DNA of 33,200 bases from an uncultured Lachnospiraceae bacterium (lineage in GTDB: Bacteria; Bacillota; Clostridia; Lachnospirales; Lachnospiraceae), in the NCBI GenBank assembly GCA_905235845.1, contig CAJONG010000010.1:1-33200 (forward strand). The letters run 5' to 3'. A program made the position numbers and the translations under genes. Under the pieces are notes generated by a model. It ran no database searches and was not told the origin of the DNA. It was given only the letters and a program-made list of their open reading frames with translations. Shown in pieces: positions 8,467-27,600 of the stretch (positions within the stretch are counted from its first letter, which is position 1; each line of letters starts with the position of its first letter).

Positions 8467-8814
8467 CTACATCAGAATGAATACAAGCACCAGAATGAAG
8501 ATGATAGCAGCTCCTGCTATGGCTTCCATCCAGTATATGATCACATTCTCGGTGTGCTTACGCTTAAGCTTTTTCCTGTAAGCAGCCACCTTCTCCGACA
8601 ATTCCCTATCCAGATTGAAGCTCATCCCACTCTCAAGTCTGGCTGTTCCTTCCTTAACAAGGTACTGTATATGCAGTTCCTCCCGACACTCCTTGCATTC
8701 CTCCATGTGCTCTAAGAATCTTCCGCCTCTCTTACCGTCAAGCTTGCCGTCAAGCCATACTGGAATGAGCCTTATGAACTCCTTATGATCCATGGATGCA
8801 TTGTGCTTTTTCAT
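8467..8814 (-). CDS. zf-HC2 domain membrane protein (anti-sigma-factor-like)
   Basis: HMEECKECREEL zinc-finger-like H-x3-C-x2-C motif plus one C-terminal TM helix (AIAGAAIIFILVLVFILM); 115 aa. Confidence 0.75.
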   Translation of the reverse strand: MKKHNASMDHKEFIRLIPVWLDGKLDGKRGGRFLEHMEECKECREELHIQYLVKEGTARLESGMSFNLDRELSEKVAAYRKKLKRKHTENVIIYWMEAIAGAAIIFILVLVFILM

Positions 8815-10085
8815 CAGTGCTTGAGTTCCTCTCTGTAATAATCCCTGAATTCGGTATATCCCTGCTCTTCAAGCTGTGTTCTCTGGAACTTCTTATTCTT
8901 ATTCATACGCGACACCATGACCTGCTTACCCTTTGTGCGCTCAACTGCCGCTTCCTTCATTATCTCACTCATCCTATCGGATGACATTCCTTTCTCTATG
9001 AGAAAAGCAACCTTCTCCTTCTCATCCGGTATCTTATAGTCATTCTCCAAAAGAAGCAGCACTATCCTCTCGAATCCGATGGAGAATCCGCAGGCCGGTA
9101 CACTCTGTCCCGTGAACCTGCCAACCATTTCATCATATCTTCCGCCTCCGCCGCAGCTTCCGCCGAATTCAGGCATGGATACCTCGAATATGGGGCCTGT
9201 ATAGTAGTTCATGCCGCGTACCAGTGTGGGATCGAATTCTATGGCAAAATCAGCCGCTTTAGCTGCATCTACACTTTCCATTATCTCAGATAGTCCGGCG
9301 GACACCTCTGCATCCATATATTCACCGAGCTTATCCGTTATAAGCTTAAGGGCTCCTGCCTTATCATTCTCTGCCATAGCGAAGAGCTCAAGATACTTAT
9401 CCACGGAAGCCGCATCATATCCGCTCCCGATCAGTTCTTCCTTCACTCCGTCGATACCGATCTTGTCCATCTTATCAAGAGTAATGAACACATCATCATA
9501 CTTATCTTCATCAAAGCCCGCATACGCTGCCATGGCCTTAAGCATCCTTCTGTCATTAAGCCTAATTATGAAGTTCTTAAAGCCAAGCTTGCCCAGGGTG
9601 GTGGTGGTCGCTGTTATGAGCTCGATCTCCGCCAGATCGGAAGCCTCTCCCAGTATGTCGATATCGCACTGATAGAACTGTCTGTATCGGCCTCTCTGGG
9701 GTCTGTCTGCTCTCCATACCGGCCCGATCTGCAATGCCTTGAATGGACTCGGAAGATTAGACGCATTATTGGAATAGAATCTGACCAAAGGAACAGTAAG
9801 ATCATAACGCAGTCCTAAGTCCGTAACATCATCCTCAGTCTGTGCATCGGCAAGATTAAACTTCTCACCTCTCTTAAGTATCCTAAAGATCAGCTTCTCA
9901 TTCTCACCGCCTGCCTTACAGTTGAGATTGGCGATATTCTCCACACACGGTGTCTCGATATGCGTAAATCCAAAGCTGTCATACGTCTCCTGAATCACCC
10001 TTATCACATGATCCCTAATACGCATCTCCCGTGGCAGTATATCCTTCATGCCCGTTACAGGCTTCTTATTAAGTGTCATTTTCAC
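8814..10085 (-). CDS. hisS: Histidine--tRNA ligase
   Basis: GMKDILPREMRIRDHV, QIGPVWRADRPQRGRYRQFYQCDIDILG, GGRYDEMVGRF, PACGFSIGFERI motifs. Confidence 0.97.
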   Translation of the reverse strand: MKMTLNKKPVTGMKDILPREMRIRDHVIRVIQETYDSFGFTHIETPCVENIANLNCKAGGENEKLIFRILKRGEKFNLADAQTEDDVTDLGLRYDLTVPLVRFYSNNASNLPSPFKALQIGPVWRADRPQRGRYRQFYQCDIDILGEASDLAEIELITATTTTLGKLGFKNFIIRLNDRRMLKAMAAYAGFDEDKYDDVFITLDKMDKIGIDGVKEELIGSGYDAASVDKYLELFAMAENDKAGALKLITDKLGEYMDAEVSAGLSEIMESVDAAKAADFAIEFDPTLVRGMNYYTGPIFEVSMPEFGGSCGGGGRYDEMVGRFTGQSVPACGFSIGFERIVLLLLENDYKIPDEKEKVAFLIEKGMSSDRMSEIMKEAAVERTKGKQVMVSRMNKNKKFQRTQLEEQGYTEFRDYYREELKH

Positions 10086-10176
10086 ATCCTCACATTTAAT
10101 TCACATAATCCTAATTATTTTACTATCTTTTTCACTTTTTCACAACATCCACATAATATTTCTTATCTGTCGCATA

Positions 10177-10401
10177 GCATGAGATGATAAAAGAATGCAC
10201 CGGATTCACGCATCCTGCGGCTAATAACATAACGAAAATGCATATACTATATCTCCCTTTACGGGTCGCCGCCAACGGCATCCCTGCCGTAGGGCGGCTT
10301 GGAAGTACATCCCTGTACTTCCATCCCTTGTGCGATAAGCATTTTCTATGTTATTACGCCTCGGCTGAAAGTGAATCCGGTGCATTCTTTTCATCTCATG
10401 C
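10177..10401 (+). repeat. Structured inverted-repeat element, copy 1
   Basis: Outer arms 10177-10209 / 10371-10401 pair over 31 bp with one 2-nt bulge; inner arms (taataacataacgaaaatgc / gcattttctatgttatta) pair with a 2-nt bulge; head has GCCGCC(10268)/GGCGGC(10293), hairpin ACGGC-ATCCCT-GCCGT and hairpin GGAAGTAC-ATCCCT-GTACTTCC. Confidence 0.85.
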
Positions 10402-10418
10402 CATACCGATATATAAGT

Positions 10419-10647
10419 CAGGCGAGGATAAATGCAATACACCCACATGTCCTTAAGGTGAGGCTTAGTATTATCTAAAAATGCGTAAATGATCAGGGCA
10501 AAAGGCACAGGGATGTGCCTTTTAGCCGACTCATCGCATGGATGCGATTGGAGGCGGCCCGTTAAGTGCAATATCCTGATCGCATTTTTATGATAATACT
10601 TGCCGATCTGGTTCGGACTGTGGGTGTATTGCATTTACCCTCACCTG
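10419..10647 (-). repeat. Structured inverted-repeat element, copy 2 (opposite orientation)
   Basis: Outer arms 10419-10447 / 10619-10647 match 27 of 29 (both mismatches are G-U pairs on the minus strand); inner arms AGTATTATC..AAAAATGCG..GATCAGG paired; head hairpins on the minus strand ATCGC-ATCCAT-GCGAT and AAAAGGCAC-ATCCCT-GTGCCTTTT; aligns with copy 1. Confidence 0.85.
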
Positions 10648-10673
10648 ACGGTGTAAGGGCAAGAAATGTAACA

Positions 10674-12161
10674 CTAAAGCGTTACCCCATCCTTGAATAT
10701 GGATATCTCTCTGTATCCTCCAAGCTCCTGTTTTGTCTTTTCTCCGCTTGCCACACTAAGGACATAGTCAAGCAGTCTCTCTCCTGCTTCATCCAGTGTC
10801 TCCTTGCCCTCCGCAACTGTTCCCGCATTGAAGTCGATCCAGCCCTTTTTCTTCTCAAACAATGCTGTATTGGTGGATATCTTCACAGTGGGTGCCGGAG
10901 CCCCGAAGGGAGTACCTCTGCCTGTTGTAAAAAGTATCATGTGAACTCCTGCCGCCGTCAGATCCGTAGTGGATACCATATCATTGCCCGGTCCTGACAG
11001 AAGCGAAAGCCCCTTTTTCTTAATGGGATCGGCATATTCAAGCACATCAACCACAGGTGCACTTCCGCCCTTCTGCACGCAGCCGCAGGACTTATCCTCC
11101 AATGTCGTGATGCCACCTGCCTTATTGCCGGGACTTGGATTCTCATAGACCACCTGGCCATGATCCGTAAAATACTTCTTGAACCTTTCTACCATTGCTA
11201 CAGCCTTTTCGAAGGTCTCTACGTCCTTACACCTGTTGAAGAGTATCGACTCCGCTCCGAACATCTCCGGAACCTCGGTCAACACCGTAGAACCTCCTAG
11301 TGCTATCAGCCTGTCCGAGAACCTTCCCACGGTGGGATTGGCTGTTATTCCCGATAATCCGTCAGAACCGCCGCATTTCATTCCCACGATAAGTTCAGAT
11401 GCATCAATCTCTTCTCTTCTTGCATTCCCTGCATATTCCGCCAGTTCCTTAAGAAGCCTGCCGCCCTCTTTGATCTCATCCTCTACATTCTGGCATGTAA
11501 GGAACTTAACCCTGTCGCCGTTCCACTCTCTTAGCTCTTCTTTGAACTGTTCCGCAGTCAGATTCTCACATCCGAGTGACAGTACCAGTACGCCTCCCGC
11601 ATTGGGATGATGTACTAAGGATGCAAGCACCTTCCTTGTGGTAGCATGATCATCGCCCATCTGTGAACATCCGTAAGGGTGAGTAAAGGTATACAGACCC
11701 TCAACCGTACCTTCCACCAGATGTTGATTCTCCTTAACCAGTCTCTCTGCTATGGAATTGACACACCCCACAGTCGGAATTATCCACAGCTCATTCCTTA
11801 TGCCTACCTTGCCCTTGGCTCTGCGATATCCCATGAATGTCCTGCCGGAAAGCTTTGGAAGCTCATGGCTTACAGGCTCGTAAGCATAAGTACCTTCCTC
11901 AGACAGTGCAGTCTTCACATTGTGTACATGCACGAAGCTTCCGGCCGGGATGTCTTCGGATGCTACACCGATCTGATTGCCGTATTTTATGATCGCATCC
12001 TTACTTGCTATGTCGCATAGTGCGACTTTATGACCTCTTCCTATTTTTTCCTTGGTTATGACACCGATGTCATCTATATCTATTTTATCACCCGGTACCA
12101 AATCCTCAAGAGCAACCGCCACATTATCCGACGGATGTATCTTAATGTATTTCATCTGCAC
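10674..12161 (-). CDS. uxaA: Altronate dehydratase family protein
   Basis: 495 aa; SAF-like N-terminus followed by GYRRAKGKVGIRNELWIIPTVGCVN, MKCGGSDGLSGITANPTVG, TTGRGTPFGAPAPTVKISTN. Confidence 0.93.
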   Translation of the reverse strand: MQMKYIKIHPSDNVAVALEDLVPGDKIDIDDIGVITKEKIGRGHKVALCDIASKDAIIKYGNQIGVASEDIPAGSFVHVHNVKTALSEEGTYAYEPVSHELPKLSGRTFMGYRRAKGKVGIRNELWIIPTVGCVNSIAERLVKENQHLVEGTVEGLYTFTHPYGCSQMGDDHATTRKVLASLVHHPNAGGVLVLSLGCENLTAEQFKEELREWNGDRVKFLTCQNVEDEIKEGGRLLKELAEYAGNARREEIDASELIVGMKCGGSDGLSGITANPTVGRFSDRLIALGGSTVLTEVPEMFGAESILFNRCKDVETFEKAVAMVERFKKYFTDHGQVVYENPSPGNKAGGITTLEDKSCGCVQKGGSAPVVDVLEYADPIKKKGLSLLSGPGNDMVSTTDLTAAGVHMILFTTGRGTPFGAPAPTVKISTNTALFEKKKGWIDFNAGTVAEGKETLDEAGERLLDYVLSVASGEKTKQELGGYREISIFKDGVTL

Positions 12162-26712: not shown

Positions 26713-27207
26713 TTAACCTGTCCTTCTCTCGATATCTATAATTCCCTGAATGGAATTAAGCTTCTCTATTATCCTGTTAAGCTCTTCTCTTCCCTTGGTC
26801 TCAAAGGAAAGCATCATGGTACATACACCCTGCTTGCTGACCCTTGTATTAAGCGAGGTGATGCTTATATTCTTCTCCGTAAGTGCCCTTGATACATCCA
26901 CCAAAAGCCCGTTGCGGTTATTGGCATATATGACGATCTCGGCCTGATACATACTGTTATCATCCACCGCATCATCCTGCCACTCGGCATCAATTAACCT
27001 CACACGCTCCGATTCCGTAAGGCTTAGGATATTGATACAGTCATTACGATGGATGGATATGCCTCTGCCTCTTGTGACAAAGCCCACGATCTCATCACCC
27101 GGAAGGGGATTACAGCACTTGGAGAATCTGACAGACACATCATGTACCCCCTTGACGACGATACCGCTGCTGTTCTTGTCATTATTCTTCTTGGCCTTGG
27201 CTGCTGC
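26713..27207 (-). CDS. C-terminal fragment of a RelA/SpoT-family (p)ppGpp synthetase/hydrolase, truncated at the assembly junction
   Basis: GIVVKGVHDVSVRFSKCCNPLPGDEIVGFVTRGRGISIHRNDCINI and ACT domain QAEIVIYANNRNGLLVDVSRALTEKNISITSLNTRVS; no synthetase or hydrolase domain present. Confidence 0.9.
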   Translation of the reverse strand, partial: AAAKAKKNNDKNSSGIVVKGVHDVSVRFSKCCNPLPGDEIVGFVTRGRGISIHRNDCINILSLTESERVRLIDAEWQDDAVDDNSMYQAEIVIYANNRNGLLVDVSRALTEKNISITSLNTRVSKQGVCTMMLSFETKGREELNRIIEKLNSIQGIIDIERRTG

Positions 27208-27600
27208 ATCGGCTATTATCTCCGACACCTTGCGTTTCGACTGGTAGGAACGTCGCAGATAGGGTGCCTTCAACACCACCGAAGTGCCTTTGGCTTTCAA
27301 CAGGGTGGTATAAGGCGAATATTTTTCCGTGTCGAGATAGAAGTAGCTCGAACGGTCGCGGTTGTTGTGAAACGAGATGGGAGCCAAGTCGTTAAGGTAG
27401 TTTAGGAATTGCAGGCCTACCGGCTTGTCGCGTCCGAGGTCGCGGTTGATGACCTCGATGCTTTCGGCATCGGCCCGCTGTCCGAGCATCATACGCGCAG
27501 GGTCGCCGGGCAGGATATTGAAAAGGAAAAACACCAGAGTGACAACCCCCAGTATAACAAGAAGTCCGTAGAGCAGCCGTTTTAGAGTATAGCGAAGCAT
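27208..27600 (-). CDS. N-terminal fragment of a DppB/OppB-type ABC transporter permease, truncated at the assembly junction
   Basis: MLRYTLKRLLYGLLVILGVVTLVFFLFNILPGDPARMMLGQRAD...APYLRRSYQSKRKVSEIIAD; remaining TM helices and EAA loop absent. Confidence 0.88.

Follow-up and report, generated by a model that had tools for sequence, protein, structure and literature searches.

Paired TwoAYGGAY RNAs in MITE-like units suggest dispersal of putative CsrA docking sites across gut clostridial genomes by mobile DNA

The region between hisS (histidyl-tRNA synthetase; 8814..10085, minus strand) and a uxaA-like altronate dehydratase gene (10674..12161, minus strand), both assigned by Pfam, is occupied in the window (i.e., the whole 33.2-kb stretch of DNA analyzed here) by two structured elements of opposite orientation. 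Inspection of the sequence alone had offered a structured non-coding RNA, a mobile repeat, or both, and the outcome of the present analysis is that they are both. Elsewhere in the window, a single ORF (26713-27600) begins as an ABC-transporter permease (N-terminal part, PF19300) and finishes as the terminal part of a RelA/SpoT protein (RelA_AH_RIS, ACT_4), the GC content over this interval rises from about 0.45 to 0.53, and the right-hand ~6 kb (on to 33200) appears Bacteroidales-like by eye; this join is a probable assembly chimera.

Family identity, strand and structure of the two copies

Both copies match the Rfam family RF01731 (TwoAYGGAY) over its full length and above the curated 43-bit cut-off, with scores of 65.2 bits for the core of copy 1 (10209..10370, minus strand) and 70.1 bits for that of copy 2 (10453..10614, plus strand), and their membership of this family is considered virtually certain. 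The sequence-only reading, in which the elements could not be assigned to a known family, was therefore wrong on this point, and the match refutes any novelty of the RNA as such. Ref68 and PhotoRC-I, which returned weak Rfam matches below the cut-off that overlap those of RF01731, were rejected as identities.

Including their full outer stems, the copies extend across 10177..10401 (copy 1, minus strand) and 10417..10649 (copy 2, plus strand) and are ~63% identical. The analysis recovered the opposite orientation described from the sequence, as well as the extended outer stems and the two hairpins with compensatory changes, and folding of the two copies yielded -122.9 kcal/mol (z = -13.1) and -121.1 kcal/mol (z = -12.3), respectively, each approximately 60 kcal/mol better than dinucleotide shuffles. 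The strands had been chosen the wrong way round: Rfam assigns the minus strand to copy 1 and the plus strand to copy 2, and the loops ATCCCT and ATCCAT, from which the strands had been assigned, are the antisense of AGGGAU and AUGGAU. Family-wide hairpin-stem wobbles agree with the Rfam sense (41 G-U versus 5 A-C), a count that is supportive only, because the stem finder slightly favors G-U. Outer-stem pairing had also been taken as a guide to strand, and the antisense fold is indeed the better one for copy 2, whereas for copy 1 it is the sense fold; the fold energies of the window copies give no decision on strand.

Each copy presents two ANGGAN hexaloops. In copy 1 these are AGGGAU in hairpin 1 (GGAAGTACAGGGATGTACTTCC; 10301..10322, minus strand) and again AGGGAU in hairpin 2 (ACGGCAGGGATGCCGT; 10275..10290, minus strand), and in copy 2 they are AGGGAU in hairpin 1 (AAAAGGCACAGGGATGTGCCTTTT; 10500..10523, plus strand) and AUGGAU in hairpin 2 (ATCGCATGGATGCGAT; 10533..10548, plus strand). 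Relative to the AYGGAY-type loop, three of the four window loops carry a G at the Y position, as do loops of other members. A model (R1) built from 58 copies retrieved 103 copies in 81 loci; the RNAalifold consensus behind it holds 20 pairs only, and served to find copies rather than to assess covariation. Among these 103 copies, hairpin 1 is 84-99% Watson-Crick paired at each of eight positions, nearly all of which exhibit four pair types, and seventy distinct stems are 87% paired as compared to 44% (maximum 49%) when partners are shuffled, a comparison that is uncorrected for relatedness. The selection on structure proposed earlier is supported. GGA is present in hairpin 1 of 90 of the 103 copies and in both hairpins of 71, and in 63 of the latter the two GGA motifs are 28-30 nt apart, indicating a nearly fixed spacing of ~29 nt. 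Of separate note, four copies have ACGAN pentaloops rather than ANGGAN hexaloops in each of their two hairpins (L079 and L080 in genome G027; L125 in G139), and an ACGAN pentaloop in hairpin 1 is also present at L099, L107, L110, L136 and L140.

Mobility of the unit and of the family

The two copies are contained in a unit of ~518 bp (10154..10671), located between the 3' end of uxaA and the promoter-like site of hisS and bounded on both sides by terminal inverted repeats. The left repeat, TAATATTTCTTATCTG (10154..10169, plus strand), was shown by pattern search and alignment to have a second exact copy at C48:3414-3429 of the same genome (G000). The right repeat is degenerate, reads TTACATTTCTTGCCCT on the minus strand (10656..10671), was located by alignment with its intact counterparts at C48 and in a second species (G010), and is separated by 2 nt from the stop codon of uxaA. 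A further instance of the unit, with 85% identity and unrelated flanks, is found at G000:C48, while G010 possesses it at two sites; all four aligned units of G000 and G010 are sharply delimited by the TAATATTTCTTATCTG terminal inverted repeats.

Two sites are each occupied in two species. One lies upstream of hisS (the window and G010:C158), and the other follows a carboxylase-like gene (G000:C48 and G010:C48), where the element comes directly after the stop codon. Most sister species are without the unit at both sites, and at the C48 site several of them show a conventional terminator-like hairpin and T run instead. Furthermore, both orientations at one locus were seen between the two species: at the C48 site, where both flanks are collinear, G000 and G010 are 88% identical in reverse complement and 65% in forward orientation, and at hisS the proximal flank shared by the window and G010 is attached to one end of the element in the window and to the other end in G010 (86% versus 67%), the other flank not being shared. 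Inversion in place at both sites appears to be the simplest account, although two insertions in opposite directions at one target could produce the same arrangement. The sole target duplication visible at the window unit is TA, a dinucleotide likely to recur frequently in flanks this rich in A and T. A search by end sequence for an autonomous partner in G000 returned five end-like sites, comprising three element ends and two stray matches, and no second repeat or core was observed alongside the stray sites (two in G000, one in G010).

Further copies in relatives were found, RF01731 being detected in 65 of 397 Lachnospiraceae genomes. The window's own genome contains six copies, which form three divergent pairs; the third pair (L063; G000:C8:63820-64319) lacks the terminal repeats seen in the others and differs in its outer stems. 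At G000:C107:2729-2825, two sequences matching the left and the right outer arm of copy 1 adjoin each other with no core, perhaps representing a core-less deletion derivative of the stem. All fourteen pairs of copies less than 1 kb apart, in ten genomes, are divergent with their 5' ends facing, where approximately one quarter would be expected by chance, although two of the fourteen are orthologous repeats of two others. The distribution is patchy, with the RNA present in five of the twenty genomes within the genus and 2 to 20 copies per genome in carrier relatives; for example, the 19 dispersed copies of G023 have ~240 bp in common, and their flanks are unrelated.

Element ends were fixed by alignment in G474, the complete genome of a member of another family (f61), in which core-bearing elements of 283-284 or about 396 bp lie between CTGYRATTCGTAATAT and ATTACGAATYGCAG. 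Identical direct repeats of 8-10 bp (for example ATCATATAA, TTACCAAAAC and ATGGAATGG) flank six of the ten core-bearing elements for which both ends were found, and versions that lack the core, 106 and 133 bp in length, were likewise observed. At the level of sequence, such terminal repeats and target duplications are the signature of transposition. This MITE family, at about 30 sites with matching ends and target duplications, appears to be recent, and G474 represents a good system for tracing the transposase. A blind scan for target duplications, covering 123 copies and employing a cross-pair control that did not preserve terminal repeats, returned many matches that are palindromic extensions of the stem, besides single suggestive cases in G357, G400 and G408. 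Proof by target duplication is thus limited to G474, because the ends were fixed by alignment in that genome and blind-scan matches are often palindromic. Taken together, the TwoAYGGAY family is very probably mobile.

CsrA-type sites and co-occurrence with CsrA

The TwoAYGGAY motif was discovered in 2010 by Weinberg et al., who assigned it no function (PMC2864571). Its resemblance to CsrA sites was subsequently pointed out in 2014 as a testable hypothesis by Gardner and Eldai, who also noted that sRNAs sequestering CsrA had been described only in Gammaproteobacteria (PMC4333381). As CsrA binding by TwoAYGGAY is a hypothesis already in print (PMC4333381), it does not constitute a discovery of the present study. 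In Rfam 15, RF01731 and CsrB share clan CL00106. No mention of mobility or pairing of TwoAYGGAY was found in the available portions of earlier published accounts, and no paper tying CsrA to MITEs or to Lachnospiraceae in this way was found in the open-access literature. While the RNA family is known, what is new is its identification as cargo of MITE-like mobile units, together with independent support for the CsrA hypothesis.

The CsrA consensus obtained by SELEX is RUACARGGAUGU (PMC7652899). According to the same source, sites follow an ANGGAN hexaloop rule, with ANGGAN also given elsewhere (PMC3791407), and one CsrA dimer bridges two sites 10-63 nt apart (PMC7652899). Hairpin 1 of copy 1 contains GUACAGGGAUGU, the sole exact match to this consensus in the 33.2-kb window, and hairpin 1 of copy 2 matches it with one mismatch. 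With up to two mismatches allowed, the copies contain 2.99 matches per kb on their sense strand versus 0.164 per kb outside, i.e., 18 times more densely, with 50 in sense and one in antisense. Two features of the hairpins count against the CsrA reading: the stem of hairpin 1 comprises 9-10 pairs, as opposed to four or fewer in most SELEX-selected hairpins (PMC7652899), and the ACGAN-loop copies argue against CsrA as the only partner, because CsrA should not recognize loops without GGA.

The window's own genome encodes CsrA (G000:C71:2749-2904). Among Lachnospiraceae, CsrA (PF02599) was detected in 62 of the 65 carriers of RF01731 compared to 149 of the 332 non-carriers (Fisher p = 5.5e-16, related genomes being counted separately), the three carriers without a CsrA match being G211, G361 and G400. 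G361 is a one-contig genome and represents the best test of the association among such carriers. Outside Lachnospiraceae, 376 Clostridia genomes include 31 carriers, of which 26 have CsrA as compared to 87 of the 345 non-carriers (p = 1.2e-10); all nineteen carrier genera, from eleven families, include a CsrA-bearing genome, and the five carriers without a CsrA match are all drafts. In this many-genome search, only the best candidates per genome were scored. CsrA travels with flagellar genes, and co-occurrence cannot separate it from motility genes. Given this linkage, the non-independence of related genomes and the best-candidate scoring, the result is a strong association and not proof of binding. 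The 2014 hypothesis rested on the loop motif, and co-occurrence across about 790 Clostridia genomes represents an independent test, which it passed. CsrA is likely to be the partner of TwoAYGGAY RNA.

Gene context, alternative explanations and comparison with known systems

The copies are intergenic, and simple ORF calling identified both neighbors for 91 of them, for which the downstream gene is antisense in 56 cases and sense in 35; convergent gaps around copies outnumber divergent ones by 27 to 10. A promoter scan around the two copies in the window gave six promoter-like sites, a single one of which lies inside the element (10275-10246, minus strand), and that one is within copy 1 rather than ahead of it. 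The hisS promoter-like site (10145-10117, minus strand; a consensus match from a promoter scan) lies between hisS and the element, i.e., beyond the latter. A single terminator-like match is located inside a window copy. This context does not fit a leader or the Rfam 'cis-regulatory' label, and would fit an element that is tolerated or useful at gene ends.

Accordingly, the Rfam reading of the family as cis-regulatory was rejected on the count of 35 sense versus 56 antisense downstream neighbors. That the element acts as a 5' leader of hisS or other genes would be in keeping with the Rfam type 'Cis-reg' and with copy 1 pointing towards hisS, yet it is highly improbable, since the downstream gene is in sense orientation for the minority of copies, the hisS promoter-like site is beyond the element, orientation relative to hisS is reversed in G010 and most sister species have no element there. 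A role confined to the 3' end, in which the long stems are kept as a bidirectional terminator or mRNA stabilizer and CsrA is irrelevant, draws on the terminator-like hairpin with a T run that sister species have at the C48 site, on the excess of convergent gaps and on the terminator-like match in the window. It leaves the conserved GGA loops, their spacing and the CsrA co-occurrence unexplained and is, as a complete explanation, distinctly unlikely, although a 3'-end function may well exist as a side function.

Ordinary CsrB-like RNA genes, i.e., independently transcribed CsrA-sequestering sRNAs duplicated like any gene, would agree with the CsrB clan (CL00106), the ANGGAN loops and the CsrA co-occurrence, and were suggested for TwoAYGGAY by Gardner and Eldai (PMC4333381). 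Target duplications, terminal repeats, unrelated flanks and patchy copy number are, however, traits of transposons, the sole promoter-like site inside the element is not positioned ahead of copy 1, and each RNA has two sites only, making this explanation unlikely. A mobile palindrome whose hairpins are read as single-stranded DNA by a transposase, in the style of REP/RAYT or IS200/IS605, with the likeness to CsrA sites being incidental, would account for strand-specific structure, for dispersed copies and for the four copies in which both loops miss a G together, as expected if one partner reads both. The 8-10-bp duplications and terminal repeats of G474 suggest double-strand DDE-type transposition, for which no internal hairpins are needed, and the CsrA association across eleven further families would be left unexplained; this alternative is regarded as improbable.

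The favored reading, to which a probability of roughly 0.7 is assigned, is that a MITE-like mobile element (~518 bp, with terminal inverted repeats and without a transposase gene of its own) takes two divergent, predicted CsrA-binding TwoAYGGAY RNAs into the 3' ends of genes. A host transposase acting in trans would probably move the unit, whose terminal repeats could double as crossover points for inversion in place. Transcription of a neighboring gene would run into the element and, because the two copies point away from each other, one copy would be read in sense from either side. The transcribed copy would present two CsrA-type hairpins 29 nt apart, both of which could be held by one CsrA dimer, and the outcome would be a 3' end bound by CsrA, acting as a local decoy or in 3'UTR control, rather than a leader of the next gene. 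The long stems probably have an additional role in ending or insulating transcripts. The sponge or 3'-end role is proposed tentatively. It is likewise a possibility, and a speculative one, that TwoAYGGAY elements act as transposons and disseminate CsrA-binding sites across Clostridia, with read-through generating a distributed CsrA sponge or CsrA-controlled 3' ends.

Carriage on MITE-like units recasts TwoAYGGAY as mobile DNA that may scatter docking sites for a regulator, rather than as the leader of particular genes, and raises the possibility that CsrA control in Clostridia includes an RNA arm. If true, this would represent a CsrA-antagonizing RNA outside Gammaproteobacteria, and mobile DNA tied to a global regulator of its host.

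With respect to known systems, the window copies are members of TwoAYGGAY (RF01731) by score, structure and paired GGA loops. Rfam models a 168-nt inner part under a cis-regulatory label, whereas the outer stem is longer here, the copies form divergent pairs in a mobile unit and their context is at odds with cis-regulation. The CsrB/RsmZ sRNAs (CL00106) similarly expose GGA in hexaloop hairpins at more than one site per RNA, but as discrete RNAs with many GGA motifs, whereas the window RNAs have two GGA sites per copy on a long-stem scaffold and the copies are dispersed. As in MITEs, the units are short, non-coding and present in multiple dispersed copies, with terminal inverted repeats and, in G474, target duplications; unlike MITEs, they carry a conserved structured RNA across twelve Clostridia families despite differing terminal repeats, and are found in both orientations at orthologous sites.
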